This document shows, one piece after another, positions 8,318 to 25,378 of a stretch of DNA of 64,000 bases. A program made the position numbers and the translations under genes. Each line of letters begins with the position of its first letter. The first letter of the stretch is position 1. The DNA is from Candidatus Puniceispirillum marinum IMCC1322 (GTDB lineage: Bacteria > Pseudomonadota > Alphaproteobacteria > Puniceispirillales > Puniceispirillaceae), in contig NC_014010.1 in NCBI RefSeq assembly GCF_000024465.1, forward strand, positions 1,488,001 to 1,552,000, read 5' to 3'. The notes beneath the pieces are model-generated. The model saw only the letters and a list, made by a program, of their open reading frames with translations. It ran no database searches and was not told the origin of the DNA.

Positions 8318-8798
8318 AAGCGCGACATCTCCAGTCTTGGGGGCAAGGACTGGAACAGTCGTAATATCATAGGTAGATAAAGTAAAATTTAGGTTAAATG
8401 CTAATTTTTATACAACTTATAGAATGTGAACCTAATGGACAGGCCTTAATAACAACCAAAGACGATTAACTTTAAATTAATCTTTATTAAAATATTGTTT
8501 ATATACATAAATATTATTTACCCCTTTTCATACTACAAGCCAAATGTATCACCTCCAAAATTTTCTGATAATAATAAAACACAACCATTGCGCTATTAAT
8601 ATGATGCGAATCGCAGATTTTCTTAGGATTTTGTTAACCTTTGCAAGGCATAAAGCCACATCATAGTCTGGCAGAGCCATGTTAATATTCAGCTAGACCA
8701 TAAATCAGACAGGCAAGACGATCGCCAGCAAACCCAATATGGCCAGAAGCAACATAAATTTGGATATTGGTTTGAAATCGATCTGATGTGGCACGCTA
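8318..8798. other. AT-rich intergenic region without a recognised gene
   Basis: No convincing reading frame or RNA was seen. The first part presumably holds the promoter of the minus-strand protease. The AT content is high around 8450-8650, and the tandem repeats and the left island junction follow. Confidence 0.6.
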
Positions 8799-9114: not shown

Positions 9115-9125
9115 GAGGTGTTTTG

Positions 9126-9713
9126 ATGACTAGATGTGCCATTTACAGTCGTGTTTCCACTGATGAACAAACCACTGAAAACCAGTTGATGGTATTGCGA
9201 GAGATTGCAGAACGCAAGGGAATGACTGTAGTTGCAGAGTTTAATGATGAAGGAATCTCTGGTGCAAAGGGTAGAGACAAGAGAACAGGGTTTGACAACA
9301 TCATCAAAGGGGCTGTCAAAAAGGACTTCGACACTATCCTTGTTTGGAGTGTTGATAGACTTGGAAGGAGCCTCCAACACTTAGTTTCCTTCCTCGATGA
9401 AATCCATTCGGTTGGATGTGACTTGTATATCCACCAGAGTGGAATCGACACCAGTTCGATTTCTGGGAAGATGATGTTTCAGATGTGTGGCGTGTTCGCA
9501 GAGTTTGAGCGAGGGATTATTAGAGAAAGAGTTTTGGCAGGACAAAAACGGGCAAAGTCACAAGGAAAACATATTGGACGGCCTTCCAACTTGAACGAAG
9601 GACTCATCCATTCAATCAAATATATGAAAGAACAGGGTGTGGGCATTCGCAAGATTGCGAAGGATTTGAGTGTTGGTGTTGGAACTGTTTACAAGGTTTT
9701 AGAGGCTGCATAG
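9126..9713 (+). CDS. Small serine recombinase (resolvase/invertase family)
   Basis: A 195-residue serine recombinase. The catalytic region begins CAIYSRVSTDEQ with the nucleophilic Ser, followed by GISGAKG and VWSVDRLGRSLQHL, and AEFERGIIRERVLAGQ leads into the long E-helix. The C-terminal helix-turn-helix starts after HIGRPS. I place the start at the ATG at 9126, eight bases after GAGG, not at the TTG one codon earlier. The length is that of resolvases and invertases, not of large phage integrases. The downstream tyrosine integrase begins directly at its stop codon, so both are co-expressed. It may resolve dimers, invert a segment or modulate integration; no res-like site was identified. Confidence 0.92.
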   Translation: MTRCAIYSRVSTDEQTTENQLMVLREIAERKGMTVVAEFNDEGISGAKGRDKRTGFDNIIKGAVKKDFDTILVWSVDRLGRSLQHLVSFLDEIHSVGCDLYIHQSGIDTSSISGKMMFQMCGVFAEFERGIIRERVLAGQKRAKSQGKHIGRPSNLNEGLIHSIKYMKEQGVGIRKIAKDLSVGVGTVYKVLEAA

Positions 9714-10952
9714 TTGGGCAAGTTTGAGATAAACCAGATTGATGTGAGGGGTGACGGTAAAGTCATCCTGTATCAACGACCCGACCATAAAGTAAAGAAA
9801 TGGCAGGCACGCATAAGTGTCGAAGGTGCGTCTGGTTATATTCGTCTCAGCACAAAACGAACTGATGTAAAGGACGCAGAGAGAGTTGCATTAGACAAAT
9901 ATTTTGAGGTTAAGAACAAAGTTGATAAGGGTGGTTCTCTTCAAGGGAAGAGTGTCAAACAAACCTACGAAGAATGGTTGGAGTATCTCCCGCTAGTCTC
10001 AATGAATAAGAGTAAGCAATACATCAGTGAAAACTCACAAAAGGTGAAAAGTGTTTGTGTTGATTACTTCAAGTCCAAACCAATTGCCGACATCACAAAC
10101 ACAGATTCACAAGAAATGATGGGGGAATACTTGCGAGACAAGAACCTTGCAAGTTCAACCATTAGAGGAACTCGTGCTGCACTCAACCTGTTTTTCAAGT
10201 TTGCGTTAGATAGAGATTACATCAAATCCATTCCAACAATCCCTGTTCCATCATTAAAGAAGAACCCTCGCCCAGAGTTCAACAAAGATGAATGGAACAA
10301 ACTCACAACCTTCCTACGCAAGTGGGTTGAAGAACCCTGTAAAGGTGAAAGGGGATTGAACGGATATGACAAGAAAAGACACAGAGAACGGTTCTACCTT
10401 CAACACTATGTTCTCATTATGGGGAACACAGGTATTCGTGTTGGTGAGATGAGGAATGTTCGTTGGGTTGATTTGGACAAAGTTGAAGTTAATGGTGGAG
10501 AACAAAGGCTCTTATTTTCTGTGGATGGTAAAACTGGAAAAAGAGATGTAATCGCAAACGCAGGCACAGAGAGATACATAAGACGAATCTATGAATATCG
10601 TAGAGATGAACTTGGTAAAACGGATGACGATTTTGACAGAACAGAGTTTATCTTTTGTCACCCAGACGGAAAGAGGATTGGAACATACAGGGGTTCATTT
10701 GAGACGCTCCTCAAGGACACGAAGTTGAGGAAAGACAAGAACGGAAACAATCGAACCCTTTATTCTCTAAGACATACCTACGCAACGATGCGTATCAACG
10801 AAGTTCCCATCTATCAGTTAGCAATCAATATGGGAACATCGGTTGAAATGATTGAGGATTACTACTCACACGCAAAAGTAAGAGATAAAGAGTTTGCGTC
10901 CAGTATGACGAAGGGAAACCAAAAGGGTTCTGCAAAGGCATTACCGTTTTGA
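9714..10952 (+). CDS. Tyrosine recombinase, island integrase
   Basis: A 412-residue phage-type integrase. The N-terminal part carries an arm-binding-like domain (about residues 1-75), then a core-binding SAM-like domain (about 85-180), then the catalytic domain: Arg242 in NTGIRVGEMRNVRW, Arg353 in LYSLRHTYAT, and the nucleophile Tyr384 in MIEDYYSHAKV. The box II position usually occupied by His is Tyr350, a common variant. The frame starts at a TTG touching the recombinase stop; no better start is available without losing conserved sequence. Its position next to the left end and the anticodon-loop core make it the likely enzyme for insertion of this island into tRNA-Arg(CCU). Confidence 0.93.
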   Translation: MGKFEINQIDVRGDGKVILYQRPDHKVKKWQARISVEGASGYIRLSTKRTDVKDAERVALDKYFEVKNKVDKGGSLQGKSVKQTYEEWLEYLPLVSMNKSKQYISENSQKVKSVCVDYFKSKPIADITNTDSQEMMGEYLRDKNLASSTIRGTRAALNLFFKFALDRDYIKSIPTIPVPSLKKNPRPEFNKDEWNKLTTFLRKWVEEPCKGERGLNGYDKKRHRERFYLQHYVLIMGNTGIRVGEMRNVRWVDLDKVEVNGGEQRLLFSVDGKTGKRDVIANAGTERYIRRIYEYRRDELGKTDDDFDRTEFIFCHPDGKRIGTYRGSFETLLKDTKLRKDKNGNNRTLYSLRHTYATMRINEVPIYQLAINMGTSVEMIEDYYSHAKVRDKEFASSMTKGNQKGSAKALPF

Positions 10953-11038: not shown

Positions 11039-11109
11039 TTTCCCCATGACTTGACAACCATCAAATGTGTTGTTTCAATAAATTAGATCTAATTATCAGG
11101 TTGAGATAC

Positions 11110-12060: not shown

Positions 12061-13551
12061 ATGTCAAATTATGTTGGAATAGATCTTGGAACAACCTTTT
12101 CAGCGGTTGCATATATCGATGAAAGTGGTCGTCCTTCAATACTTAATAACGATCGTGACGATAACATTACTCCATCATGCGTTGCTAAGATAAAAGGGGA
12201 AATTGTTGTAGGTGAACGAGCTCGACGGCAATGGGGAAATGACAAGAAAAACGCAGCTGCCCGGTTCAAAAGGGATATGGGTTCATCGTCTACACACAAA
12301 ATTGGGGGTAAGGAGTTTACCCCAACAGAATTGAGTGCTGCTGTTCTTAAAAAGATAAAAAGTGATGTTGAGGATAAGGTTGGTGAAATAGAAGAAGCCG
12401 TAATAACAATTCCTGCAAACTTCTCTCAAGAGGCAAGAGATGCCACGATGGAAGCAGGTCGACTTGCAGGATTAAATGTAAAATACATCATTAACGAACC
12501 AACAGCTGCTGCACTCTATTATGCATATCAGTCCGATGGAGATTTATCTGGAACATATGTGGTTTTTGACTTGGGTGGAGGGACATTCGATGTTTCTGTC
12601 ATAAAGGTTAAGGGACAAGATGTGGAGGTTGTGGCATCGAATGGACTTCACAAATTAGGTGGAGATGACTTTGACAAGGTTCTTTGGCAATTAATTTCAG
12701 AGAAATATAAAGAAGAGACAGGACAAGATCTGACTGAGGAAGACTTCCCAATCAACGATGTTGAAGAAGAGAAGAAATCACTCTCTGGCAGAAAACGGAC
12801 AACAGTTGAGATAGATAGAGATCTAATCGATGTCACTCGTCTTGAATTTGAAGAGTCTATTTCAAGTTTAATTGCACAAATCGAAATGATGTGTGAAACG
12901 ACTTTAGATGAAGCAAATGTCAGTCCGGAAGACATTTCTTCAGTGTTTTTAGCAGGAGGTAGCACAAGAATTCCGTGTGTGGTTGATTGTGCAAAGAAAG
13001 TCTTCAAACAAGATCCAGTTTCAACTGTAAATGTCGATGAGGTTGTGGCTCTTGGAGCATGCCTTTACGCCGCATATAAGAGCGATGGTGCTGGACTGTC
13101 TGAAATTCAGAAGAAATCAGTTTCTAAACTGAATGTGTCTGAGGTCACGAACGAATGTTTTGGAACAATTTCGGTTGGATTCTCCGAGTCTAAAGGAGAG
13201 GACCTGGTTAACTCAATCATCATACAAAAGGGGGAATCAATTCCCTGTTCAGTCACTAAGACTTACCACACACTTTTTGATGGTCAGTCAGCAATTGACT
13301 GCACAATCACTGAATCAAAGAGTCCTGAGACTAACCCTAGGTTTGTGAAGGTTATCCATGAACAAACATTGGACTTACCTCCAGATCGTCCTGCTGGACA
13401 AGAAGTTGAGGTGACTTATTCCTATGATGAAAACCAGACGATGCATGCAGTCTTTAAGGATGTCTCGTCTGGCAAAGAGTTAACCTGGTCTTTCTCTAAG
13501 GCGTCGGGTGAATCAACACAGTCAGAAATTGATAAATTCTTGGTGGACTAA
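12061..13551 (+). CDS. Short Hsp70/DnaK-like chaperone
   Basis: A 496-residue Hsp70. The ATPase domain is intact: GIDLGTTFSAVAY (residues 6-18), NEPTAAALYYA (145-155), FDLGGGTFDVSV (169-180), and FLAGGSTRIP (296-305). The substrate-binding part after about residue 370 is only some 125 residues, enough for the beta sandwich but without the helical lid of full DnaK (about 630 residues). It is preceded by the GrpE-like gene with no gap and followed two bases later by the TerB-domain gene. There is no DnaJ gene in the operon; the TerB protein has a C-terminal segment resembling that of membrane J-type/TerB proteins and could act as its partner. A lidless, operon-specific Hsp70 suggests a dedicated sensor or remodeller. 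Confidence 0.93.
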   Translation: MSNYVGIDLGTTFSAVAYIDESGRPSILNNDRDDNITPSCVAKIKGEIVVGERARRQWGNDKKNAAARFKRDMGSSSTHKIGGKEFTPTELSAAVLKKIKSDVEDKVGEIEEAVITIPANFSQEARDATMEAGRLAGLNVKYIINEPTAAALYYAYQSDGDLSGTYVVFDLGGGTFDVSVIKVKGQDVEVVASNGLHKLGGDDFDKVLWQLISEKYKEETGQDLTEEDFPINDVEEEKKSLSGRKRTTVEIDRDLIDVTRLEFEESISSLIAQIEMMCETTLDEANVSPEDISSVFLAGGSTRIPCVVDCAKKVFKQDPVSTVNVDEVVALGACLYAAYKSDGAGLSEIQKKSVSKLNVSEVTNECFGTISVGFSESKGEDLVNSIIIQKGESIPCSVTKTYHTLFDGQSAIDCTITESKSPETNPRFVKVIHEQTLDLPPDRPAGQEVEVTYSYDENQTMHAVFKDVSSGKELTWSFSKASGESTQSEIDKFLVD

Positions 13552-13553
13552 TC

Positions 13554-14780
13554 ATGGAATTAATTGGTGGAATTATTGGTGTCGTAATCTTCTGGGTTGG
13601 GGTTCAATTTGTCCTCAGTCTGATAGGTCATGGAGTGCGTGCAGGAGGACGGGCAGTAAAGAAAGCCGTCACTGGAAAAGAAACCTACTTTGGTCCTCCC
13701 CAATTAAAATTTGTTGATGACAAACATGAAAAAACTGGTTGGTTGATCAAGAAAATCATGTTTCGTGGCAGACTTCCAAATACAAGAGACATGAACATAT
13801 CGTTTGCGATTTCAGCATTTGATGTCACTGACGGGGAGGAAAAATACCGTCCGGTGTTGTCAATCGTTGAAGCGGCTCAAGAAGAGTCAACCATTTGCTA
13901 TTATATGTCAGATGATTTTGGGAGAGTTGGAGAAGGTTCATCATTAACAGATTGGATTCAATTAGGAGTTATAATTCCTGAACTAATCCAACCTCCTTAT
14001 TCTGGAGATCGTGAAATTCACATTGTTGTCCGAATGTTCAATACGAACGATCCAATTACAATCGTAGCCGGTGGTTCAAGTGATGACGGTGAATTGATCC
14101 TTCTTGAGACCCTACCATTTACCCATCACTTTACAGATAAGGGTTACGAAGAAGCGTCTAAAGATCGGGAAGAGTCACAGTCTATTTCACTAAAAATTGG
14201 TGTTGCAGTTGCAATGGCGGATGGATCTCTTGATGATCCTGAAGGGGAAGTTCTCAAGTCGTGGATTATAAAAGAAGTTGCATCCTTCTCAGATAGTAAA
14301 CAAAAGAGATTGAAAACAATGTTCAATAAATCTCTTAAAGAAGGGTTTGACCAAGCAAAGAAAGGATCACTTGTATTATCTGATCTTGTCGAACGGTTGG
14401 CAGAAATAGGTGACAAAAAGTCAAAGTATGACGCAATTGAACTTTGCTTGGATGTTATGGCAGCAGATGGAGTTGCAGACCCAGAAGAGATGTCAGTGAT
14501 TAGAAATGTTGCTAAGTCTCTCGGTCTCGACATGGATGAAATAGAGAAAATGAGAGAGAAGGTCACCCTTAACCTGTCAACTGAACTAACTTCAGAAGAA
14601 GGTATGGAGTCCCTAGTTGGTATCGAGTCATCTTGGACTGATGAACAAAAGAGAAAACATCTTCGAACCGAATTTCAGAAATGGAGCAACAGATTGAATT
14701 CTCTTCCAGAGGGAGAGGAACGCCAATCAGCTCAAAACATGTTGGATAATATTGCTACTTTAAGAAAGAAATATGGTTGA
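13554..14780 (+). CDS. Membrane-anchored TerB-domain protein
   Basis: A 408-residue protein with an N-terminal membrane helix (about residues 3-25), a beta-rich domain of unknown type (about 50-190), and a TerB-like helical domain (about 205-340) with two acidic repeats: AVAMADGSLDDPEGEVL (218-234) and VMAADGVADPEEMSVI (301-316). These duplicate D-G-x-x-D-x-x-E patterns are the metal-binding signature of the TerB fold. The last 45 residues (TDEQKRKHLRTEFQKW to the KKYG end) resemble the C-terminal segment of TerB proteins found with chaperone genes. It sits between the Hsp70 and the peptidase and overlaps the latter by 8 bases. TerB domains recur in membrane-associated stress and phage-conflict systems. 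Confidence 0.75.
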   Translation: MELIGGIIGVVIFWVGVQFVLSLIGHGVRAGGRAVKKAVTGKETYFGPPQLKFVDDKHEKTGWLIKKIMFRGRLPNTRDMNISFAISAFDVTDGEEKYRPVLSIVEAAQEESTICYYMSDDFGRVGEGSSLTDWIQLGVIIPELIQPPYSGDREIHIVVRMFNTNDPITIVAGGSSDDGELILLETLPFTHHFTDKGYEEASKDREESQSISLKIGVAVAMADGSLDDPEGEVLKSWIIKEVASFSDSKQKRLKTMFNKSLKEGFDQAKKGSLVLSDLVERLAEIGDKKSKYDAIELCLDVMAADGVADPEEMSVIRNVAKSLGLDMDEIEKMREKVTLNLSTELTSEEGMESLVGIESSWTDEQKRKHLRTEFQKWSNRLNSLPEGEERQSAQNMLDNIATLRKKYG

Positions 14781-15846
14781 TCTCGATCGGGCAAGAAGGA
14801 TTGCAGACTTTATCCGGATTTCTGAGGACAAACCATCTAAGTCCGTTGGTCCTCATGATCTCAAAGGTAGAGAAGATCACAAGGACACCATGTTGAGGCA
14901 CGGAGTTTTAATCTCCAAATCAGTTACACCCTCTCTTCATGATCAACTAAACTCTGTGTGTGAATCCCTGTATATCCCGAGGGAGTGTGTCACCGCATTT
15001 GTATATAATAGTCCTGAAGTCCAGGCTGATTGTTTGATCGACTCCCCAGACACTTGCGTTCTGCGGTTCACATCCGGTCTCATTAACCTTATGGACGAAA
15101 ACGAATTCAAATTCGTCGCTGGACATGAACTTGGACATTTTCTACTCGGACATGGAGCGTGTTCTCAGTATTTATCTGAAGGAACATCTGAAGACTTTAT
15201 GGTGAGAAGAGCACGAGAGTTGTCTGCGGACCGTCTTGGTTATCTTTCTATTGGAAATCAAGAAGAGTCTTTGCAGGCTATTATCAAGACCGCATCTGGA
15301 TTGAATAATCAATTCTTGAGATTTGATGTGGCAAGTTTCATGTCACAAACTAACATGATTTCCAATCCCTCTAAAGGAGAGTCTAAGAATAGCACGCATC
15401 CATCCATGCTGATTAGGTGTCGTTCCTTGTTATGGTTTGCGATGTCAGTCCACTCCATTGAGGATTTGGATCGACTGACACAAGAAACGATCCATCAAAT
15501 TGATTCGCGGGTTGTTAAAGATCTTGAGAAATTTGTCGACGGGCAGGTCAGGTTGAGAAAAACAGAATTTGAAAAAGACATATCGGTATGGAAGTCTGCA
15601 CTACTGATCTATCACTCTGGTTCATTCACGAAAGAAGTTCAACAACGACTTCAGGACATCCTAGGTGAAGAGACTTTACAAAGTATAAAGTCTTTTTTTG
15701 AACTTTATTCTAAAGAGGAATTATTGAGTGAAATTACGCAAAGGTTGGAAGAAACCCTAAAAAGATCTTCCCATGAATTTCCATCATCTGCACAAAACAT
15801 CGAAAATGCGGGTTATAAAGTCGCATATAAAATTGTCGAAGGATAA
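14773..15846 (+). CDS. M48-type zinc metallopeptidase
   Basis: A 357-residue peptidase of the M48 type. The zinc site is clear: HELGH at residues 118-122 with the third ligand Glu149 in RARELSADRLG. The region before it (CLIDSPDTCVLRFTSGLINLMDENEFKFVAGHELGH is split here as TSGLINLM and FKFVAGHELGH) matches the M48 pattern. No membrane segment is obvious, unlike HtpX, so the enzyme is probably cytosolic or bound to its membrane partner. The C-terminal 140 residues are helical and charged. Its start overlaps the TerB gene end by 8 bases, which ties it to the operon. A protease at the end of a chaperone/TerB operon looks like an effector. Confidence 0.85.
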   Translation: MVDLDRARRIADFIRISEDKPSKSVGPHDLKGREDHKDTMLRHGVLISKSVTPSLHDQLNSVCESLYIPRECVTAFVYNSPEVQADCLIDSPDTCVLRFTSGLINLMDENEFKFVAGHELGHFLLGHGACSQYLSEGTSEDFMVRRARELSADRLGYLSIGNQEESLQAIIKTASGLNNQFLRFDVASFMSQTNMISNPSKGESKNSTHPSMLIRCRSLLWFAMSVHSIEDLDRLTQETIHQIDSRVVKDLEKFVDGQVRLRKTEFEKDISVWKSALLIYHSGSFTKEVQQRLQDILGEETLQSIKSFFELYSKEELLSEITQRLEETLKRSSHEFPSSAQNIENAGYKVAYKIVEG

Positions 15847-15982
15847 GTGGGTTAATTAACCTAATACAAATCTAATTGTTCCAAAGTATGTGGTTCTGGA
15901 ACACCCAAATACGGAAAAATACCCCTATGACCAGCAACGGTTTTGAGGGATATATTTTTTAGGACTTTTGGAACAGCCGTGT
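15847..15982. terminator. Convergent intergenic region with inverted repeats
   Basis: Between the convergent peptidase and unknown genes lies the perfect palindrome GGTTAATTAACC (15850-15861) and a longer imperfect inverted repeat formed by GTTCCAAAGT near 15879 and ACTTTTGGAAC near 15964. A bidirectional transcription end is the likely role. Confidence 0.45.
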
Positions 15983-16585
15983 TCAATACTCTTTATTCAT
16001 TTTCCACTTAGAACTTATCTGCTGGTAAGGTTGGAAAGATTTTTTTTCGATGTCTTGCATCCAAAGATCAAAATCTATATCGCTTGCGAGTTCACTTAAA
16101 TCAGGCACTTTGCCTGTTCCATAAACCACCAAAGAACCACCAATGTATCGTCCGTTGTGTAAGTGCCAGTGACCCAAATGAGCAGACCAAGTTTGTGTTT
16201 CTTCCTTCCATGTGCCGTTTTTCCTCGGCACTCTGACTTTCTTGGGCAATCCATGAACAAGAGCGTGAGATCTACTGTGATCTCTCTTTTGTTGGAATGC
16301 GTATTTTTTTGCTTGTTCATCTGGCAGATGCGATAAATCGGGCAAAACCAATGGTTTTTGTGGCGGTGGTTGTTTGGTTTTATGAATGCCTTCGATGACG
16401 AATATCTTCTTATGCTGAGTAGATACAAACACTACAGAGTTAGTATTTACCTCGCCATCCTCTGTTAGGTTGAACATCCATTTATCAACAGCATTATTTT
16501 TCTCAGATGCAACAAGCAGTGGTTTCACTGATTTTTCAAATAATTCTTTTCTATCATTGTCAGGTGGTATGATTTTTATCGCCAT
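15983..16585 (-). CDS. Unknown 200-residue protein next to the C5-methyltransferase
   Basis: I do not recognise this protein. It begins MAIKIIPPDNDRKELFEK and has a Lys/Pro-rich middle and a His-rich stretch around residues 140-150 (HLGHWHLHNG). There is no signal peptide, membrane segment or known nuclease motif. It starts 20 bases after the methyltransferase stop on the same strand and is last in the modification block, the place where a restriction enzyme is often found. A nuclease role is only a positional guess. Confidence 0.7.
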   Translation of the reverse strand: MAIKIIPPDNDRKELFEKSVKPLLVASEKNNAVDKWMFNLTEDGEVNTNSVVFVSTQHKKIFVIEGIHKTKQPPPQKPLVLPDLSHLPDEQAKKYAFQQKRDHSRSHALVHGLPKKVRVPRKNGTWKEETQTWSAHLGHWHLHNGRYIGGSLVVYGTGKVPDLSELASDIDFDLWMQDIEKKSFQPYQQISSKWKMNKEY

Positions 16586-16600
16586 TTTTATTTACCCTCG

Positions 16601-16617
16601 GTTTCTCACTGGGAAAC
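16601..16617. repeat. 17-bp imperfect palindrome, copy 1
   Basis: GTTTCTCACTGGGAAAC spans the stop codon of the C5-methyltransferase. A copy with only the central base changed lies at 20367-20383, upstream of a small ribbon-helix-helix gene. It could be an operator for a dimeric regulator, or a hairpin in the mRNA. Confidence 0.5.
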
Positions 16618-17769
16618 TCGTAAAACATTCTCATATACACTCGCAGCAATAGCAGTTGTCATCAATGGTGGCACCATTCTCCCTATGCGTTCTGCTTGTT
16701 GATTGAATGTTCCAGTAAGTTTGAAATCATCTGGTAAAGCGGAAAGTCGTTTCAACTCTCTTATGGTGTATGTTCTATCTTCCTCTGGATGACAGATACC
16801 ACCTCTTCCACCTAACTGATTTCCAGACTGTGTGATTGTCGGTGCTGGTTCACCCCAAGCACATCTGTAGGTGTTGAAGTAAAAGTTTTTGAATCCCTTG
16901 TAATGTTCGTGGAGTCTAGATGGACGGGCAGGGTTCTTTGGTATTGCCCTGATGATTTCATAAGACGCCGTTTTCCTTATGGATTGCCTTATGAGTGCAA
17001 TCTCTTGTTTGTCTCGTTCATCGAGTTCCAAAGTCGATAGAGCATCACTAACTGATGGTGCGTAGGAACTTCCAATGGGAAAGAGTTTCTTTATCTCGAC
17101 CTCTTCCTTGATTCCTATCTTTTCACAAATGTCTTTACGGACACCAATGACAAACATTCTCTCTCTGCGTTGAGGAACTCCATAGTGATGCGCCTTGAGT
17201 CTCTTGAACTCAACAAAGTATCCAGCACCACGCAACCTTTTGAGTGCATCGTGAAACACAGTCGAACTCCCAATCTCTGGAACATTCTCAAGGATACATA
17301 TTTTTGGACGAGCGCAGTTTGCGAGATAGACATAATCGTGAATGAGCATCCCTATTCTGTCCTGCTCTACCTCACTATACTTTTTGTTCTTTGCGAGATG
17401 TTTCTCTCTGTCCTCTTCCCTTTTTCCAATGGCCTTTGAGAATGTTGCACAAGGTGGAGAACCATCCAGAATATCCAACTCACCCTGTTCAACTCCAAAG
17501 GAACGAAACCAACTAAGGACACCCTCTTTCTTTGAACCAGTGATTTTGCGAATATCACTGCTATCAACAATAGTGTCTGGATAGTTTTGTTTGTAGGTTT
17601 CCACTGCTTCTGGAACAAACTCGTTTGCGGCAAGAACTTTACCACCAGCAAGTTTGTATCCTGTCGAAGACCCACCACCACCAGCAAATGTGGATACAAC
17701 GGTAAACAGTTCTTTGCTGGATTGCCTGGACACATCGTCCATCGTGTATGTTGTAAATCGGTTATTCAT
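16606..17769 (-). CDS. C5-cytosine DNA methyltransferase
   Basis: A 387-residue DNA methyltransferase with the ordered motifs of the Dcm/M.HhaI family: motif I STFAGGGGSSTGYKLAGG, motif IV DGSPPCATFS with the catalytic Cys107, motif VI ENVPEI, motif VIII QRRERMFVIG, a target-recognition region, and motif X MVPPLMTTAIA near the end. The residue after the catalytic Cys is Ala in place of the commoner Gln. I chose the ATG at 17769 because it overlaps the preceding stop (ATGAATAA), a typical coupling; a start six codons earlier is possible. It is third in a minus-strand operon after the CmoA-like and MT-A70-like genes. Its target sequence cannot be read. Confidence 0.95.
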   Translation of the reverse strand: MNNRFTTYTMDDVSRQSSKELFTVVSTFAGGGGSSTGYKLAGGKVLAANEFVPEAVETYKQNYPDTIVDSSDIRKITGSKKEGVLSWFRSFGVEQGELDILDGSPPCATFSKAIGKREEDREKHLAKNKKYSEVEQDRIGMLIHDYVYLANCARPKICILENVPEIGSSTVFHDALKRLRGAGYFVEFKRLKAHHYGVPQRRERMFVIGVRKDICEKIGIKEEVEIKKLFPIGSSYAPSVSDALSTLELDERDKQEIALIRQSIRKTASYEIIRAIPKNPARPSRLHEHYKGFKNFYFNTYRCAWGEPAPTITQSGNQLGGRGGICHPEEDRTYTIRELKRLSALPDDFKLTGTFNQQAERIGRMVPPLMTTAIAASVYENVLRVSQ

Positions 17770-18688
17770 TGCAAACCGACCAACCATCCAAGTTACCCTT
17801 CACACCAATCAGCATTCTTGGTGCAACAGAACTTTTCTCAGCAAACTTGATGACTTCATCAATGGTTTTGAAACTGGAAGATACAGTCAAGTCACCAGAT
17901 TGGCCTCTAACTCCAATCAAAACAACATCATTACCGAATGGGATATAGTCCTTGTAACCAAATCCCCATCCTTCAAGACATCTAATACCCAATGAGAGTT
18001 TGATTCTACTAATCACAAGAAAGATGAAAACAGGTGCAGTTTGGGTTGTTTTTCTAATGTCCTGTATTGGATAGGCATCACCAATATCTACAGGAAAATC
18101 CAGTTTTCCCCACTCATTGAGTTGGGTGGAAGAGGGTTGGAAAATAATCGTATGAAACAGATCACCTCGTTCAATGAAGTCTTTCAGTGATGTGGGTGTG
18201 TCGATGTCCTTTGTCTCAACGAGACCCTCTAGTTTCTTTTCAGTTTCTTTTGCTTTCTTTTTTGAAATCCTTGTTTGCTGTCTTTCTAAAAGGGTCGCAA
18301 TCGCATCCCTTCCACTGGACGGTGTAATCTCACCCTTATCCATATGTTGTTGGATGCGTTTCTTTCCCTGCCCCTTCCCAAAGTGACTTTCATAACTGCG
18401 TTCTAAAACAGTGAGATTGTATAACGCACCAAATGATGATGGCAGTTTTGATTGATTAGTTTTAATTATTTCACTCACACCGATGGATTGCCATCTGGAT
18501 AAGGTGCTTTTGTTCATCCCAATCAGTTCTGCTAAATCCTTTGCATAACCCTCACCCAATTCTTCTATCGCACTGACAATGTAATCTGCCTTGAGCATTA
18601 TGTTGTCACGAATAGTTGCATCAGTGTCGTTGATGCGTTTTGCGTGTTGTTCAAGTGAGAGATAGTTGGGTTTATTCATCTCCAACAT
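17762..18688 (-). CDS. HTH protein with degenerate MT-A70-like methyltransferase fold
   Basis: A 308-residue protein. The N-terminal half has a ParB/KorB-like helix-turn-helix (AKDLAELIGMNKSTLSRWQS, about residues 49-68). The C-terminal part follows the MT-A70 order: a start like FHTIIFQPSS where the family has DPPW, YPIQDI where it has YPTM, then the VFIFLVISRIKLSLG strand-helix, EGWGFGYKDYIPF, and VVLIGVRGQ. The catalytic DPPW is therefore replaced by QPSS, so the domain is probably inactive or altered. Its start overlaps the CmoA-like stop (alternative ATG at 18679) and its end overlaps the methyltransferase start. Phage proteins fusing ParB-like and MT-A70 parts are known; this looks like an eroded or repurposed one, perhaps a DNA-targeting subunit. 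Confidence 0.6.
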   Translation of the reverse strand: MLEMNKPNYLSLEQHAKRINDTDATIRDNIMLKADYIVSAIEELGEGYAKDLAELIGMNKSTLSRWQSIGVSEIIKTNQSKLPSSFGALYNLTVLERSYESHFGKGQGKKRIQQHMDKGEITPSSGRDAIATLLERQQTRISKKKAKETEKKLEGLVETKDIDTPTSLKDFIERGDLFHTIIFQPSSTQLNEWGKLDFPVDIGDAYPIQDIRKTTQTAPVFIFLVISRIKLSLGIRCLEGWGFGYKDYIPFGNDVVLIGVRGQSGDLTVSSSFKTIDEVIKFAEKSSVAPRMLIGVKGNLDGWSVCNE

Positions 18689-19376
18689 CCTCTGGTGGGC
18701 GTTTCATTGCCAGAACACCAATGAAGTTGAAATTTCTCCAAAAGATTTGGATGCCCCGAAAACCTACGGAACGAAGTTGTGAGATAAGAAGATTTTCAGT
18801 TGTGAGTTTCGCAAGGTGTCTTAGTTCTTGCTCCTTATCTAGAATCTCTTTTTCCGTGAATGACTGTCTTTTGAAATCGTAATAGAGGGAGTCCACCATA
18901 TCTTGGACTTTGGCATTCATTGAGTAGATTTTCTCGGCCGTTACGAATGCACCACCATCAACAAGGTTGTCATAGATTTTCTGCAAGAGAGATAGTCTGT
19001 CTTTCTCTGCAAGGAACTGGAATGTGAATAGCGAGATTGCGAAGGACATATTTGAGAGAGCATCACTTTCCCTTACATCTTCAACTTTATATTTAAGATT
19101 GGTTTCTTGTTTCCAATGTTGTTTGAAATCCTTGTTTATCTCGATGCCAGTATAGTTCGCATTGGGTGCTTGAGTGTTTTCATCCTTGATGCGTTTGAGC
19201 ATCGTGCCTTGCGAGCATCCAATATCAAGAACATTGGTTTCGTCCAAAACGAAGTATCTGGATATGCCTACAACATCATCTCTTAAGTCTGTATAACCTC
19301 GTATCGACTTTGTGATGTGTTCATCAAAACCACTTGCGACTGAACTAAAACTGAATCTTTGCTCTTCACTCATCAT
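18672..19376 (-). CDS. CmoA-like SAM-dependent enzyme (carboxy-SAM synthase family)
   Basis: A 234-residue class I SAM enzyme most like CmoA, which turns SAM and prephenate into carboxy-SAM for tRNA wobble uridine modification. Shared features: the N-terminal FDEHITKSIRGYTDLRDDVVGISRYF, motif I VLDIGCSQGT (about 49-58), ISLFTFQFLAEKDRLSLLQKIYDNL, TAEKI, the DFKRQSFTEKEI segment, and the closing VGFRGIQIFWRNFNFIGVLAMK, which closely parallels the CmoA end. The housekeeping partner CmoB is absent here. As first gene of an operon with a DNA C5-methyltransferase it may supply a modified cofactor; this is inference. Whether the carboxylate-binding residues are kept must be checked against a structure. 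Confidence 0.75.
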   Translation of the reverse strand: MMSEEQRFSFSSVASGFDEHITKSIRGYTDLRDDVVGISRYFVLDETNVLDIGCSQGTMLKRIKDENTQAPNANYTGIEINKDFKQHWKQETNLKYKVEDVRESDALSNMSFAISLFTFQFLAEKDRLSLLQKIYDNLVDGGAFVTAEKIYSMNAKVQDMVDSLYYDFKRQSFTEKEILDKEQELRHLAKLTTENLLISQLRSVGFRGIQIFWRNFNFIGVLAMKRPPEDVGDE

Positions 19377-19669
19377 GAATCAACTATAACAGAATATCTT
19401 CTACTTAGCCAGTTTCTCATCAATGTGTCAATTAGGCCACCGTCAAAAACTGACAGCAAATTTCTAACCTACAAAAGTAGGGTTGAACCTAGAGAGAAAT
19501 GTGGTGCCACCCTCCCCCAAATCGTAGTGTGACTTATTTGCACTACCCTACAGAAAAAACGCATCCCCAGGCATTTTACTGCATCCCAACCTTATAAATA
19601 GAAATGAAGAAACGGTGATGGAAACACACCACCGTTCTTCGCACTGAAACATATTATTGGAGGCAGGAA
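19377..19669. promoter_or_regulatory. Divergent promoter region of the modification block and small-gene block
   Basis: This region separates two divergent transcription units. It contains TATAAATAG near 19591 as a possible -10 element for the rightward genes, then an AACGGTG...CACCGTT hairpin (about 19614-19636) and a strong ribosome site GGAGG just before the ATG at 19670. No gene was found. Confidence 0.45.
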
Positions 19670-20077
19670 ATGAAGCATTCCCAACAACTATTTATAGCGA
19701 TGAAGGACATTGCCCTTCAAAGTTTTAACACTGCGAAAAACACAGTCAGCACCTATGAAGAACTGGCCCAAGCACTCACCGACATAGAGTTCTTTGATGA
19801 AGAGAAGAAACCTTACACTGGTGCAAGGTTGAGACTTCAAGTTCATCGTTGGAACAAGAAGAGTGAAGATGAAGATTTTAGACAAACATATTATCCCAAA
19901 GAACTAGTCAGTAAGGATGATGGGGTTGGATACAAACAGATGCATATCCAATCACCAACAAAAGTGGTTGAGGATGAACCAGTTGAGACTGATTGGGAAA
20001 CTTTAACGAAACACTTCACCCCACACGAAATAAAATATTTTGGGTGGAGTGAAACGAATTTCAATCTAAACGCCTAA
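19670..20077 (+). CDS. Unknown 135-residue acidic protein
   Basis: Not recognised. The protein begins MKHSQQLFIAMKDIALQSF and is predicted helical in the first half (SFNTAKNTVSTYEELAQAL), with an arginine-containing LRLQVHRWNKK helix that could bind DNA, then an acidic tail. It has a near-consensus ribosome binding site (GGAGGCAGGAA) and is the first of three small rightward genes. Its strong signal suggests high expression. A small regulator is possible but unproven. Confidence 0.65.
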   Translation: MKHSQQLFIAMKDIALQSFNTAKNTVSTYEELAQALTDIEFFDEEKKPYTGARLRLQVHRWNKKSEDEDFRQTYYPKELVSKDDGVGYKQMHIQSPTKVVEDEPVETDWETLTKHFTPHEIKYFGWSETNFNLNA

Positions 20078-20083
20078 GTAGCT

Positions 20084-20365
20084 ATGTCTACTTTCAACAT
20101 AGATTCATTAGAGACAGATGACTCTAGTCTTTATCACTGTGGTTTGAATCCCTGTAGGTATTGTTCTTCATCAATAGAACCTTGCGAAGCATTTGATGCG
20201 TCAGCATCAAACCTAAGTTCTGTTTGTCCTTACTTTTGGAAACCTATTCCTCAAACTCAAGATGAGATGAATGAACAGATGCGTTTGGATTTTGAGAAAC
20301 AGGAACAAATGGAACAGGCACTTGCTGCAACTCAATGGTGCAAAGATTACTTTGGACACGAGTAG
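20084..20365 (+). CDS. Small cysteine-containing protein, 93 residues
   Basis: Not recognised. Cysteines cluster as HCGLNPCRYCSS (about residues 18-29), then EPC, VCPYF and WCKDYF, a spacing that could bind zinc or an iron-sulfur cluster. The second half is a charged helix rich in Met, Gln and Glu. It begins six bases after the preceding gene and is probably co-transcribed. The start codon lies close to that stop with only a weak ribosome site. Confidence 0.6.
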   Translation: MSTFNIDSLETDDSSLYHCGLNPCRYCSSSIEPCEAFDASASNLSSVCPYFWKPIPQTQDEMNEQMRLDFEKQEQMEQALAATQWCKDYFGHE

Positions 20366-20366
20366 A

Positions 20367-20383
20367 GTTTCTCAGTGGGAAAC
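20367..20383. repeat. 17-bp imperfect palindrome, copy 2
   Basis: GTTTCTCAGTGGGAAAC differs from 16601-16617 only at the central base. It begins two bases after the stop of the 93-residue gene and 35 bases before the ribbon-helix-helix-like gene, a suitable place for an operator. Confidence 0.5.
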
Positions 20384-20417
20384 CGAATAAATAGATGATG
20401 AAAAGGAGTAAGCATAA

Positions 20418-20606
20418 ATGAAAAGAAATCTAGATTACCAATACCCAGTAAGAATGACTTACACACTCAAAGACTCAATAGATGAGGTTTGTGAGGGGTT
20501 GGATGTAAACCCAGCGGAATATATCCGTAAGTCTCTTGCTCGTTGTGTTGCACAGGACAAACAACAACTTACATCAGCGGAAAGTCACCTTGTTTTTATG
20601 AGATAA
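20418..20606 (+). CDS. Ribbon-helix-helix-like small protein
   Basis: A 62-residue basic protein. The strand YPVRMTYTLKDSI followed by the helices DEVCEGLDVNPAEYIRKSLARCVAQ fits the ribbon-helix-helix arrangement of Arc/MetJ/CopG-type repressors, with the N-terminal strand able to enter the major groove. A ribosome site (AAAAGGAG) lies a few bases upstream of the start. Autoregulation through the palindrome at 20367-20383 is a natural hypothesis; the second palindrome copy would then link the methyltransferase block to it. Confidence 0.65.
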   Translation: MKRNLDYQYPVRMTYTLKDSIDEVCEGLDVNPAEYIRKSLARCVAQDKQQLTSAESHLVFMR

Positions 20607-20818
20607 AAGACTTCAGCGGAATAAGCACAAGAAACGATAAAAAAATATGAAGCAGTGGTGTTCCTGAACCACTTTATAACGAGAAAAGAAATAGATTTGT
20701 GGTGATGAAACCACGACAAATAACTAGGTGAGATGAATTAGATATTTTGGTGTGGACTCATACCAAAATGAGGTTCAAGGGTGTTGGTGCAGCGTAAATT
20801 ACGAACTGATTGAGTGAA
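20607..20818. ncRNA. Structured intergenic region with three consecutive hairpins
   Basis: Three stem-loops follow each other: AGTGGT/ACCACT (20654-20673), ATTTGTGGT/ACCACGACAAAT (about 20695-20721, one bulge), and ATTTTGGT/ACCAAAAT (20744-20769). No reading frame was seen. It could be a small RNA, a mRNA 3' end or a series of terminators between convergent genes; only the inverted repeats are seen directly. Confidence 0.4.
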
Positions 20819-21082
20819 TTACGATGACTCTTCACCATCATTTTTTTGAAATAACGAAATCACCAGAAAAATTGTGAAGAGTGGAGAAATAAACACCACA
20901 ATTGAGAATAACCAACCAAATACGAAACTAAACAAACCAGCGTTCATTAGAGCACTAGGCAATAAATTCCATGGGTTAATCCATTCACCGTTAAAAATTC
21001 CATTGTATAAGAGATACCATCCAAACAGTCCAAAGACACCGAGGCCCTTGATGAAAAACGCATCTGATTTTTGCTCACTCAT
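20819..21082 (-). CDS. Small membrane protein, about 87 residues
   Basis: Not recognised by family. It has at least two hydrophobic helices (FFIKGLGVFGLFGWYLLYNGIF and the stretch around LFSFVFGWLFSIVVFISPLF) with a short charged end. I prefer the ATG at 21082 because GGAG stands six bases upstream and this start overlaps the stop of the preceding gene (ATGAGTGA); the longer form from 21106 lacks a ribosome site. It belongs to a minus-strand run with a second membrane protein and the GIY-YIG gene. Confidence 0.6.
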   Translation of the reverse strand: MSEQKSDAFFIKGLGVFGLFGWYLLYNGIFNGEWINPWNLLPSALMNAGLFSFVFGWLFSIVVFISPLFTIFLVISLFQKNDGEESS

Positions 21083-21302
21083 CGTCATCTCCAAGTGCTT
21101 TATCAATCAACTTGTCCACTAGTGATAAACACAGATAACCAACATAAATACTCAGTGCTATGGATCCGAATATGAAAATCCAAAAGGACAGACCAACTCT
21201 ATCTATATCGCCGCTTATGCCTAAAAAGTTATGGTTCATCCAAAAACAACCAAAGAGTGTTCCGAACATTCCTGCAATAAATGCTAAATATGCTAACGGC
21301 AC
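21075..21302 (-). CDS. Small membrane protein, 75 residues
   Basis: Not recognised by family. Two hydrophobic helices are visible (about residues 3-20 and 40-65) with an acidic C-terminal tail GDDDE. The start is a GTG immediately after the stop of the GIY-YIG gene, and its stop overlaps the next membrane protein. Two small coupled membrane proteins beside a nuclease-like gene could be membrane effectors, but this is only context. Confidence 0.55.
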   Translation of the reverse strand: MPLAYLAFIAGMFGTLFGCFWMNHNFLGISGDIDRVGLSFWIFIFGSIALSIYVGYLCLSLVDKLIDKALGDDDE

Positions 21303-21908
21303 TTATTCTCTCTCCATCCTAAGGTGATGAAGAGTTTCCCCATCCAAACACCACCAAATAGTTCCTTGAACCGCCGCCCAATCATAACCCATCTCTCTCA
21401 GAACAATGTCTGCTGAGCGAGATAGAGACATTAACTCGTTCCGAAAATTTACTTGGGTATCATTTGCCACGGTGCAGGTAATTGTGCTGTCTTTCTTAAA
21501 CCGAAGGACAGTTCCCTTATCCAATCCTAAAATCCCAAAATTAAATCGTTTTCTAGTTTCTCTCGCTCTGTTTAACGCTTCCTGATCTTGGGGAGACTCA
21601 ACAATATCGGTAGTGGGGGTGACATTCTTTCCACCCATAACTTCTGCTATCTCAAGAAGTGATTTCGCTCTTTCTGGAGTGGTGTTGAAAAACTCTCTGC
21701 TTTGACGAACACGACAATCGTCTAATCCTTGATGCATCTTCTTCTCAATCAGAGATGCATCTGGAACTTCTACTGCATAATAACACTCAAAAGGTAGCGC
21801 TACGCTGGTGTTGTCTAGTTGCTTGATACGCTGTTCAAGGTTTTCAGTGATACCAATCTTGATGGTGTCGGGCATACATTCATTCGTTAATATGTAAACA
21901 ATTGGCAT
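21303..21908 (-). CDS. GIY-YIG (T5orf172-type) protein with RAMA-like C-terminal domain
   Basis: A 201-residue protein. The N-terminal 90 residues follow the T5orf172 branch of the GIY-YIG fold: VYILTNECMPDTIKIGITENLEQRIKQLDN, then ALIEKKMHQ-like helix and the REFFNTTPERA segment. The C-terminal 85 residues (about 118-200) have the pattern of the RAMA/DUF4357-type domains found on restriction and modification proteins: GTVLRFKKD, a V-x-F-x-x-E-L-M-S-L-S segment, then WAAVQGTIWWCLDGETL. RAMA is thought to read modified DNA. It lies 10 bases downstream of the HNH-HIT gene. A nuclease that senses the island's own or foreign DNA modification is a plausible role, by inference. Confidence 0.7.
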   Translation of the reverse strand: MPIVYILTNECMPDTIKIGITENLEQRIKQLDNTSVALPFECYYAVEVPDASLIEKKMHQGLDDCRVRQSREFFNTTPERAKSLLEIAEVMGGKNVTPTTDIVESPQDQEALNRARETRKRFNFGILGLDKGTVLRFKKDSTITCTVANDTQVNFRNELMSLSRSADIVLREMGYDWAAVQGTIWWCLDGETLHHLRMERE

Positions 21909-21918
21909 AAACTATCCC

Positions 21919-22908
21919 TCAATACTTCTGCTTATGTGCTATCACACCACGCACACCGCCTCGTGGTTCTTCAACATCGCCTTTGCGTCTTGGTATTAGA
22001 TGAGTGTGACAGTGCATAACTGTTTGCCCTGCATCCTCACCAACATTGTTACCAACATTGAAACCAGTGATAGTGTTATCGCTATCCATGATCACCTGTC
22101 TGCGCTCTTCCAAAAGTCTCTGCATCGCATTTCGTTCTGGTTGATGCAGTTCAAAATAGTCTGAGACATGACGCTTTGGGATAATGAGTGTGTGTTGCTC
22201 TGTTACAGGAAACGCATCAAGGATTGCGTATGCTAGTTCATTCTCTGCAACCACTCGTTCTTGTGGAATCTCACAAAAGATGCATCCGTTTTCACGGTGC
22301 TCATAAGACTTATTGATTTCACGAAAGTCAGTGTCATCTCTGTCTCGCTTCATTGCATTACAGGAGTAACAAAGCGCCTGGAGATTAGATTGTTCATCAC
22401 CACCACCGCTATTGCGTGGGACGATGTGATCAACCTCTAACGCTTTCTGATCTGCTGATATGCCACACAGTTCACATCTGAACTTTGCTCTTTTGAGAAT
22501 TTCATATCTCAATGTGCCAGAGATATATCCAGATGATTTCCGCCTGTGATTCCAGACTTTGTCACCACGCTTGTCCAAGAACTCCTCAATCTTAGAATGA
22601 CACAGATTTATGAGTTCTGAGATCTCACTCTCACTAAGACCATCAAAACCATTCAAGGAGTATTCGTTCTTGTCTTTAGAAGTGATGCCTCTGCTTTGTG
22701 TGAGGACTTTGCCAACCATGTTCTTGGTGATGTGCTCATAGTATTCAACTTGAGACACATCATGCCCCAAGAGTGACTTTGCAATCTCTGTGGTTGATGC
22801 TGAACCCTGTCTGCCTAGAAGTTCTATCAACATCACTGGCTGATAGATATGAGACATTCTCATCTCATTCAGAATAAAATTGGACAAATCATCAAACTGC
22901 TTGGACAT
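21919..22908 (-). CDS. HNH endonuclease fused to a HIT domain
   Basis: A 329-residue two-enzyme fusion. Residues 1-110 are helical and include a winged-helix-like region. The HNH domain (about 133-195) has the zinc cysteines C145-x-x-C148 and C180-x-x-C183 around VDHIVPRNSGGG (Asp160-His161) and N175. The HIT domain (about 207-320) shows CIFCEIP, NVGEDAGQTVMHCHTHLIPR, with the triad His299-His301-His303. HIT proteins hydrolyse nucleotide phosphoramidates or adenylated substrates. Joining a DNA nuclease to a nucleotide hydrolase suggests a conflict enzyme in which the HIT part could remove nucleotide adducts or regulate the nuclease. Confidence 0.88.
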   Translation of the reverse strand: MSKQFDDLSNFILNEMRMSHIYQPVMLIELLGRQGSASTTEIAKSLLGHDVSQVEYYEHITKNMVGKVLTQSRGITSKDKNEYSLNGFDGLSESEISELINLCHSKIEEFLDKRGDKVWNHRRKSSGYISGTLRYEILKRAKFRCELCGISADQKALEVDHIVPRNSGGGDEQSNLQALCYSCNAMKRDRDDTDFREINKSYEHRENGCIFCEIPQERVVAENELAYAILDAFPVTEQHTLIIPKRHVSDYFELHQPERNAMQRLLEERRQVIMDSDNTITGFNVGNNVGEDAGQTVMHCHTHLIPRRKGDVEEPRGGVRGVIAHKQKY

Positions 22909-22971
22909 ACCAAACAGTATGCTGTTTTTTCATTTTTTGACAATTAGTTGATAAAATCTCTACCAATCACC

Positions 22972-22998
22972 CACCAGTGCGCTTTGACTGCACTGGTG
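22972..22998 (-). terminator. Stem-loop between the HNH-HIT gene and the upstream unknown gene
   Basis: A perfect 9-bp stem CACCAGTGC/GCACTGGTG encloses a 9-nt loop. It lies downstream of the minus-strand gene ending at 23030 and upstream of the HNH-HIT start. No adjacent U-run was seen, so termination is not certain. Confidence 0.5.
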
Positions 22999-23029
22999 TG
23001 GGGTTTCATATCAAAAAGAAGTCAGGCAA

Positions 23030-23911
23030 CTAAAGGGTGCTCTTCACGGTTTTCTTACGCTCTTCTTCAAGTCTGCGTTTTATGTCCTCGTCTTGTCTCT
23101 TTTTTTCCTCTTTATCTTTTCTCTCCCTCTCAAAAGTTTGATAAATTGGTGTTAGTTCTTCATTACATTTATCAAATCTATTGGTTGCAATATCTTGTTC
23201 TTTGTCCAAGATGCCCATGAAGTGCCAGACATAACTCAGCGAAGTTCCGCCGCCATCTTGCCGCGAACCATATTGCTGATAGTCAAAAGTTATATGAACG
23301 CGACGACCATCATCATCAGTCCGAAACGATTCAAAATCTTTTTTATTTCCATCAAATAGCGATGTCACATAGACAAGAAGGTTGGGGTATTTTTTCTCTA
23401 ATGTGTCCAAGACTTCATTTTTTACAATGTCGTGGACATGAAAATTCCAAGTATACCATTCACCAATGTAATTTGACGGTGGTTTTGGATTAATTAACGC
23501 ACTTATTGCATAGATGCCTATAATGGGGTGGACATAAACTCTGTAAATTACATCATTCGATATCGGATTAGGTAATTGGAGGGGGTTCGGGGTCTCTTTG
23601 AGGTAATATGCAAAAGAGGGTGCAGTCAAACGGTCACCAAAGGTTGTCCGGCAGTATCCATTTGGATCCAATTTTTCAAATGCTCTGTGACTAATCATAG
23701 GTGTTGAGACGAACACGGTATCCACTCTCTCCCGATTTGGTGATTTAGTCTCTACATACCCAACATCTCTCAAACCCAGACTTAGACCAAAAGGTTCAAT
23801 CTGAGTTCTAGAGTGTTCCTGCTCCATTGAGATGTAGATTATTGATCCTGCAGCAATGACAAGGAGAACTAGCAAGGCAACCGATGCTTTTATAATTTTC
23901 CTCAACATCAT
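23030..23911 (-). CDS. Unknown membrane-anchored protein, 293 residues
   Basis: Not recognised. A single N-terminal membrane helix (about residues 4-28) precedes a soluble region with no known motif. The last 40 residues are a highly charged Glu/Lys/Arg coiled coil (starting around FERERKDKEEKKRQ). It starts inside the end of the exported 162-residue protein (ATGA overlap), so the two are translated together and both face the envelope. Confidence 0.65.
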   Translation of the reverse strand: MMLRKIIKASVALLVLLVIAAGSIIYISMEQEHSRTQIEPFGLSLGLRDVGYVETKSPNRERVDTVFVSTPMISHRAFEKLDPNGYCRTTFGDRLTAPSFAYYLKETPNPLQLPNPISNDVIYRVYVHPIIGIYAISALINPKPPSNYIGEWYTWNFHVHDIVKNEVLDTLEKKYPNLLVYVTSLFDGNKKDFESFRTDDDGRRVHITFDYQQYGSRQDGGGTSLSYVWHFMGILDKEQDIATNRFDKCNEELTPIYQTFERERKDKEEKKRQDEDIKRRLEEERKKTVKSTL

Positions 23912-24396: not shown

Positions 24397-24442
24397 AGTA
24401 AAATTTAATCACAATTTTTGAGTTTAATCCAATCCATATAAA

Positions 24443-24465
24443 TACCTCTGAAAGGAACAGAGGTA
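24443..24465 (+). promoter_or_regulatory. Hairpin with the ribosome site in its loop
   Basis: TACCTCTG (24443-24450) and CAGAGGTA (24458-24465) form a perfect 8-bp stem; the loop AAAGGAA carries the Shine-Dalgarno sequence, and the ATG of the next gene begins on the last base of the stem. The layout could control translation or be an operator for a dimeric protein. Confidence 0.5.
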
Positions 24466-24665: not shown

Positions 24666-24677
24666 TAAAAAATATTG

Positions 24678-25304: not shown

Positions 25305-25378
25305 TTTTTACAATGATTTTGTATTAGATAAAATATTGTTTATAATGTATTATTTTTTACGATTCGCAAGAACAATAT

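Follow-up and report, generated by a model that had tools for sequence, protein, structure and literature searches.

A route from carboxy-S-adenosylmethionine (carboxy-SAM, Cx-SAM) to 5-carboxymethylcytosine (5cxmC) in DNA was published in December 2025 as the CmoA-CmoX chemistry of the Synechococcus phage S-B43 (PMC12783734). According to this report, SpCmoX carboxymethylates cytosine with Cx-SAM, has GC as its target motif and, as the wild type, accepts no cofactor but Cx-SAM, the R350N variant accepting neither; the kcat of Cx-SAM formation is 2.33 per s for SpCmoA, compared with 0.23 for the E. coli enzyme (PMC12783734). In E. coli CmoA, Arg199 holds the carboxylate of Cx-SAM (PMC4482062; PMC3663124). 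We describe here the operon cmoA-mid-cmoX in a stretch of 64,000 nucleotides (the window) of Candidatus Puniceispirillum marinum IMCC1322 (contig NC_014010.1, positions 1,488,001 to 1,552,000), a cultured SAR116 alphaproteobacterium with a single chromosome of 2,753,527 bp (PMC3368413). Judged from its sequence, this operon very probably writes 5cxmC. A first-pass annotation of the window had proposed from gene linkage that a CmoA-like protein and a C5 enzyme together produce a non-methyl, carboxymethyl cytosine mark, and the closest characterised homologues (PMC12783734) together with Arg370 of the window enzyme support this proposal; as chemistry the idea is not new, because the phage enzymes were shown in 2025. 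The three minus-strand open reading frames (ORFs) span 16606-19376 and overlap by 17 nt (cmoA/mid) and 26 nt (mid/cmoX), the ORF listing confirming the coordinates originally given:

18672..19376, minus strand: cmoA, predicted Cx-SAM synthase of the DNA-modification type, 234 residues (TIGR00740 match, CmoA matches in the PDB, ligand residues)
17762..18688, minus strand: mid, modelled as a KorB/ParB-like helix-turn-helix (HTH) plus pseudo-MT-A70 protein, 308 residues, presumed DNA-targeting partner (AlphaFold2 model, VIA-align 2)
16606..17787, minus strand: cmoX, predicted DNA cytosine C5-carboxymethyltransferase, 393 residues (PDB 8YF3 match, six residues); an alternative start is the later ATG at 17769

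With the CmoA-CmoX(-CmoY) system of S-B43 the locus shares homologous CmoA (42% identity) and CmoX (41%) proteins, encoded by neighbouring genes, and the same arginine and catalytic cysteine; unlike that system as described in PMC12783734, it lies on a bacterial integrase/resolvase island, has the extra gene mid between the two enzymes and an orphan ORF downstream, and no CmoY ligase was found in it.

The assignment is carried above all by CmoX. Its best PDB match is 8YF3, an entry named in PMC12783734 (E 8e-77, 262 bits; the runner-up reaches 67 bits), and all six mapped residues are identical, F34, E56, F57, D78, C113 and R370 of the window protein corresponding to F25, E47, F48, D69, C98 and R350 of SpCmoX, among them four Cx-SAM contacts of SpCmoX besides the arginine (F25, E47, F48, D69). 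The cysteine belongs to an SPPC catalytic motif (S110-P111-P112-C113), and a PF00145 match of 156 bits bears out the earlier identification as a C5-cytosine methyltransferase. Ordinary C5-methyltransferases carry an asparagine in motif X where CmoX has its cofactor-selecting arginine, and a basic residue replacing this asparagine in the engineered M.MpeI N374K reportedly lets a C5-methyltransferase use Cx-SAM; compared with the latter, the window enzyme has a natural arginine, belongs to another subfamily and is accompanied by a cofactor synthase of its own. Across 107 aligned CmoX rows of at least 250 residues, a set with near-copies and with S-CRM01 twice (L105 = L002), the column of R370 holds Arg 104 times; L005 and L061 have Asn, and one row has a gap. 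The CmoX profile was also run against 398 genomes of the phylum, 19 of which matched (E <=1e-40), and 136 of the order, 14 of which matched (E <=1e-30). With the own genome set aside, these loci supply a contrast set of 38 C5-methyltransferase rows, and here the same column holds Asn in 31 rows, Met in one, no residue in five and Arg in one. Four of these rows repeat others (L047/L057, L054/L058), and the 34 distinct genes give Asn 29 times, Met once, no residue three times and Arg once. The sole Arg row comes from G490, a genome with its own cmoA; among the 33 other contrast loci CmoA was found in one (L053) within flanks of about 1.5 kb, which are too short to reveal even the cmoA of G490. 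Moreover, the CmoX proteins linked to mid form one clade with support 100/99 in a tree built from a chosen subset of 39 rows, for which a long-branch warning was issued that includes L005.

The CmoA-like identity given in the first-pass annotation also holds, since TIGR00740 is matched with 104.1 bits (E 9e-30) and the best PDB matches are the CmoA structures 1im8, 4iwn and 4gek. The window protein is 42-43% identical to the CmoA proteins of S-B43 and S-CRM01 (42% to the active SpCmoA). It has the fold family of the E. coli enzyme (4gek, 4iwn; tRNA cmo5U synthesis) and most of its SAM-contacting residues: E. coli Y39, D62, G64, S66, D117, F137 and E164 are kept as Y28, D51, G53, S55, D100, F121 and E148, and three contacts differ, D89, N90 and N132 being E79, I80 and L116 in the window and E, L and L in SpCmoA. 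On the other hand, it departs from the E. coli enzyme in its score below the TIGR00740 cut-off, in a genome with no CmoB above cut-off, and in Glu182 at the position of Arg199 and Arg186, four residues on, at the position of Glu203; the HMMER alignment to 1im8 gives the same register. The loss of a carboxy-SAM-binding residue had been named in advance as a refutation of carboxymethyl transfer. Arg199 is indeed lost, yet the active SpCmoA carries the same E/R swap, and we rejected the loss as a disproof of Cx-SAM synthesis. Of the 82 CmoA matches in 92 loci, 76 are rows of 200 residues or more; among these, Glu stands in the Arg199 column in 73, Arg four residues later in 71, and both in 70. 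Because Glu is found both in the active phage enzyme and in these 73 rows, Arg199 is not decisive and is unsafe as a CmoA criterion. Four of the six rows without the full swap accompany an Arg-type CmoX (L003, L004, L020, L021), and with the two others (L061, L062) an Arg-type CmoX was not seen. We infer that the arginine displaced by one turn of the helix holds the carboxylate of Cx-SAM instead; a word search of the main text of PMC12783734 finds no mention of Arg199 or R199.

In the IMCC1322 genome there is no second CmoA at E <=0.001 and no CmoB (TIGR00452) above cut-off, and tRNA cmo5U synthesis therefore does not explain the cmoA gene. The two weak TIGR00452 matches obtained have counterparts in 14 of 14 control genomes, in one of them over the cut-off. 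The candidate role of the window CmoA as a host tRNA enzyme was rejected on the lack of CmoB above cut-off. A prephenate dehydratase is present (182 bits), and prephenate should therefore be made in the host. The same genome holds another C5-methyltransferase-like ORF, of 549 residues, at about 1436 kb (G000 C1 1436205-1436432, L010), which scores 104 bits against the CmoX profile. In a genome of the same family (G035), a contig ends inside a cmoA fragment 57% identical to the window cmoA.

The middle protein had been described as a degenerate MT-A70/HTH protein. Fold comparison upholds the MT-A70 part, the HTH half is weaker, and no Pfam domain scores above cut-off, weak HTH matches only being obtained. 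In an AlphaFold2 model built from three homologues (predicted local distance difference test, pLDDT, 74.8; predicted template modelling score, pTM, 0.47), residues 163-308 match MT-A70 enzymes (VIA-align 2: MTA1, aligned at residues 166-299, with Z 10.7 over 119 residues at 3.4 A, METTL3 with Z 8.8), and the Foldseek rows with E <=0.001 are MT-A70 entries, with whole-chain TM-scores of 0.2-0.3. Residues ~5-140 match the DNA-binding domains of KorB (aligned at residues 23-140; Z 8.9, 101 residues, 2.3 A) and of several ParB/Spo0J entries; this part is helical and lies below the Z of about 13 under which, by the caution given with the alignment tool, mostly helical parts may match by common arrangement only. 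The HTH assignment is thus weaker than the MT-A70 assignment. DPPW, the catalytic motif of MT-A70 enzymes, is present in none of the four mid homologues aligned, and inactive MT-A70 partners such as METTL14 and MTA9 are familiar pseudo-enzymes; mid, as modelled, would differ from these and from KorB in fusing both folds, and it is encoded beside a C5-cytosine enzyme instead of an adenine methyltransferase. A PDB sequence search with the mid profile returned one weak HTH match and two near-chance matches, and PF02195 (ParBc) does not match mid. ParBc-domain proteins are reported near many CmoX genes (PMC12783734), and a ParB-type DNA-binding partner is therefore plausible. The chance that mid targets CmoX is, on the model, an even one and no better, because the HTH match falls below the caution level for helical parts. 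The gene is diverging more quickly than the two beside it, its product being 28% identical in the window and L066, compared with 55% each for CmoA and CmoX. Searches for mid in 398 phylum genomes and in 385 class genomes matched three genomes each, namely the own genome and two with weak partial matches, which lie in the HTH part (L023) or in the MT-A70 part (L024, L154, L155).

Seven loci contain a mid gene: the window, L060 (in G490), L066, L150, L151, L152 (partial) and L005. L066, L150, L151 and L152 are close relatives, which leaves about four independent lineages. L152 has the scores of L066 for CmoX, for CmoY and for the two cargo genes and is perhaps the same element, and over the module L150 and L151 score almost alike. 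CmoX is of the Arg type in six of the seven. In all five Arg-type mid loci with upstream DNA (window, L060, L066, L150, L151) cmoA stands directly upstream of mid; L152 starts within mid, and its upstream order is not visible. Because the order cmoA-mid-cmoX recurs in L060, L066, L150 and L151, the arrangement is not due to chance, the recurrence being not fully independent among the last three. A CmoY-like ligase domain is fused in front of CmoX in L060, L066, L150, L151 and L152, the window being the one Arg-type mid locus without this fusion, and a serine recombinase directly precedes cmoA in L060, L066, L150 and L151, the window resolvase lying at the other end of its island. The cargo behind nearly the same module differs. 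In L150 the fusion is followed by a type I restriction system, with HsdM, HsdS and the first part of HsdR (4684-8808), in L066 and L152 by a TRM-like methyltransferase and then a 341-residue protein (L066 6046-7071; L152 3852-4877), and in L151 by a 677-residue protein with no Pfam family; the window has ORF200 at this place. The 341-residue protein looks PD-(D/E)XK-like by eye and has no match in Pfam, NCBIfam, PADLOC, PHROGs or PDB sequences. Going by their visible genes, the IMG/VR contigs with the mid module resemble mobile islands more than phages.

The seventh locus, L005 (IMG/VR contig, 569-3603), has the same pair of mid and methyltransferase, the latter 43% identical to the window CmoX, and differs from the window in the Asn of motif X, in a fused Tet_JBP-like domain (32.1 bits for a cut-off of 34.9, E 8e-8) and in that no CmoA is found within its 4.5-kb contig; its product would presumably be 5-methylcytosine (5mC), then oxidised. 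In the tree it branches off first in the mid clade (100/99) inside the Arg-type set, a single case on a long branch, and because of this placement its Asn looks like a secondary change. The natural pair, Arg with CmoA and Asn with TET/JBP, isolates the residue that would decide which modified cytosine results. In L061 (10347-13820) we observed a CmoA-like protein beside an asparagine-synthetase-like ORF (by eye) and an Asn-type C5-methyltransferase, the locus being cut by the contig end.

A wider survey was made with the CmoX profile. The 80 viral-contig loci considered, the best 80 of at least 554 matches, all contain at least one Arg row; CmoA is present in 70, a CmoY-like gene in 40 and mid in one (L066), and among the ten with no CmoA on the available stretch L087 extends about 3 kb past the methyltransferase. 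Because the query was all-Arg and favours Arg, the 80 of 80 are partly a matter of selection, the contrast set of genomes being the fairer comparison, and the viral set confirms the published CmoA-CmoX association rather than tests it. The contig scan of genomes used two narrow patterns and so covers bacterial occurrences of the module too thinly; it returned two loci, both from Endozoicomonas, with ParB-like, CmoX and CmoA genes among genes that are phage-like by eye; in one of them (L021) CmoX is split over two frames. CmoX matches were also obtained in 15 phage and 15 plasmid records, motif X being examined in two of each, and the plasmid proteins of Thermobispora (with an annotated phage capsid gene alongside) and Azospirillum are both Arg-type.

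Two aspects of the window locus were absent from the first-pass annotation, namely a fourth co-directional ORF and the location of the operon on a low-GC integrase/resolvase island, over which the G+C content falls from ~0.50 to ~0.40 (~8.3-25.5 kb). The corresponding features are:

15983..16585, minus strand: ORF200, orphan ORF of 200 residues, co-directional and 20 nt 3' of cmoX; candidate effector or further modifier
9123..9713, plus strand: serine resolvase of the island (PF00239, 145 bits; 52% identical to the recombinase preceding cmoA in L066)
9714..10952, plus strand: tyrosine integrase of the island (PF00589, 37 bits; 30% identical to the L060 island integrase)
8488..8503, no strand: candidate left attachment repeat, an exact 16-bp repeat near the island-bounding GC step
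25329..25344, no strand: candidate right attachment repeat, second copy of the 16-bp repeat

The 16-bp repeat was found in windows picked by eye around the GC steps; a further pair, of 14 bp, lies at 9076 and 25291. The island ORFs given to Pfam, some small ones being left out, include no phage structural families. Among the ORFs of window positions 8301-26000, phmmer finds no match to a CmoY ligase. ORF200 has no match in Pfam, NCBIfam, PADLOC, PHROGs, the phage records or the viral contigs, occurs in one of the 136 genomes of the order (its own) and gave an unusable model (pLDDT 39.5). Elsewhere on the island, 21919-22908 encodes a fusion of an HNH endonuclease domain (PF01844, 48 bits) with a HIT domain, for which PADLOC gives weak hits to nuclease models of the restriction, Zorya and Septu types; it adjoins a T5orf172 protein (21303-21908). 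A 14-nt tandem repeat around CAAGGCCAGTGGAT occupies 8782-8935, at the left end of the island and ahead of the resolvase gene.

The homologies, the cofactor residues, the gene order and the island setting can be read directly from these sequences; from them we infer the catalysis by the window proteins, the role of mid and the biological purpose as follows. The operon would constitute a DNA-marking pathway encoded by the island. CmoA would convert SAM and prephenate to Cx-SAM; CmoX would flip the target cytosine, attack C6 through Cys113 and transfer the carboxymethyl group to C5, with Arg370 gripping the carboxylate of the cofactor; and mid, by analogy with inactive MT-A70 partners, would most likely dock CmoX on DNA or set its target. 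On the other Arg-type islands the fused CmoY amide ligase would cap the carboxylate. Because CmoY was not found in the window island, free 5cxmC is expected as the end product here, unless ORF200 acts on it. The mark would most likely give the island and host DNA resistance to restriction, or serve in self-recognition. For anti-restriction camouflage of a mobile island we see the chances as evenly poised, and a self-mark of a defence system appears rather unlikely. More broadly, and tentatively, as a scheme that we consider possible but short of an even chance, 5cxmC may be a mark by which a class of marine mobile islands other than phages recognises itself. CmoX would write it with a ParB-HTH/pseudo-MT-A70 targeting subunit, in most islands the ligase would cap it, its use in bacterial chromosomes would be related to restriction or transfer, and a sister lineage (Arg to Asn, CmoA not seen, TET/JBP-like oxygenase gained) would reach another modified cytosine. 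If the operon does write 5cxmC, this base would be known beyond phage camouflage, in the chromosome of a cultured bacterium from an abundant marine group, where it is directly measurable, and would have gained a putative DNA-binding pseudo-methyltransferase partner not seen in the phage system as described in PMC12783734. The setting of the module outside phages, on an integrase/resolvase island of a cultured SAR116 bacterium, is apparently new; in the text of that report, as far as consulted, neither this setting nor a pseudo-MT-A70 partner, a fusion of CmoY to CmoX or a sister with Asn and TET was met. Other reports of a natural 5cxmC base or of CmoX were not found in the literature searched by title and start of abstract, most subscription papers and preprints lying outside its coverage.

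Several points weigh against 5cxmC synthesis by this operon or against parts of the scheme. The best PADLOC models for the window CmoX are those of ordinary type II methyltransferases (210 bits) and of Druantia DruM (193 bits), best models of this kind being typical of C5-methyltransferases at large. The CmoA score lies under the curated TIGR00740 cut-off of 193.3, and the protein is not filed as the tRNA-pathway equivalog; it lacks E. coli Arg199, published as the key Cx-SAM residue (PMC3663124), and at another ligand position SpCmoA has Asn where the E. coli and window proteins have Asp. Mid has no match among 50,697 phage records, and its role is guessed from a model of moderate confidence (pTM 0.47). 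No cognate nuclease for the mark was identified, ORF200 having no nuclease signature and the HNH-HIT protein lying outside the operon. Finally, 5mC may be made beside or instead of 5cxmC by the second C5-methyltransferase-like ORF of the genome, and the operon could be silent in its host.

The likeliest of the alternatives is a restriction-modification or other defence system in which the 5cxmC mark supplies the modification and ORF200 or the HNH-HIT protein the nuclease for unmarked DNA. The 20 nt between cmoX and ORF200 would fit such a pair, as would the nuclease-model matches of the HNH-HIT protein on the same island and the restriction genes right behind CmoX in relatives, that is HsdM-HsdS-HsdR in L150 and the protein judged PD-(D/E)XK-like by eye in L066 and L152. 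However, ORF200 has neither a recognisable nuclease signature nor a usable model, the HNH-HIT gene lies 2.5 kb off, the 341-residue protein is without any family or PDB sequence match, the type I system supplies its own methylase, and the cargo behind CmoX varies among close islands, unlike a fixed restriction-modification pair; we regard this alternative as doubtful. It is improbable, moreover, that CmoX reverted to, or also performs, ordinary SAM-dependent 5mC synthesis while CmoA serves another purpose, such as a leftover function on tRNA or small molecules. The cellular SAM pool greatly exceeds that of Cx-SAM, proteins like CmoA are also met apart from an Arg-type CmoX, as in L061 beside an Asn-type methyltransferase, and PADLOC files the window CmoX among ordinary type II enzymes; yet Arg370 and the five other mapped residues are kept, the wild-type SpCmoX used Cx-SAM alone (PMC12783734), CmoB above cut-off was not found in the genome, and the order cmoA-mid-cmoX is preserved in five loci. 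Decayed phage cargo, the functionless remnant of a camouflage pathway, could be suspected from the frequency of CmoA-CmoX pairs in the viral contigs (CmoA in 70 of the best 80 of at least 554) and from the CmoY not found in the island, but is very unlikely, all three genes being open and full-length, the cofactor residues intact, mid unmatched in the phage records and the module recurrent on other recombinase-bearing islands.

Besides the genes discussed above, the island carries on the strand opposite to the cmoA operon a cluster (12061-15846) encoding a short DnaK-like HSP70, a TerB-domain protein and an M48-type peptidase, and a Halogenase D-like 2OG-Fe(II) protein is encoded just left of the island (5335-6117).

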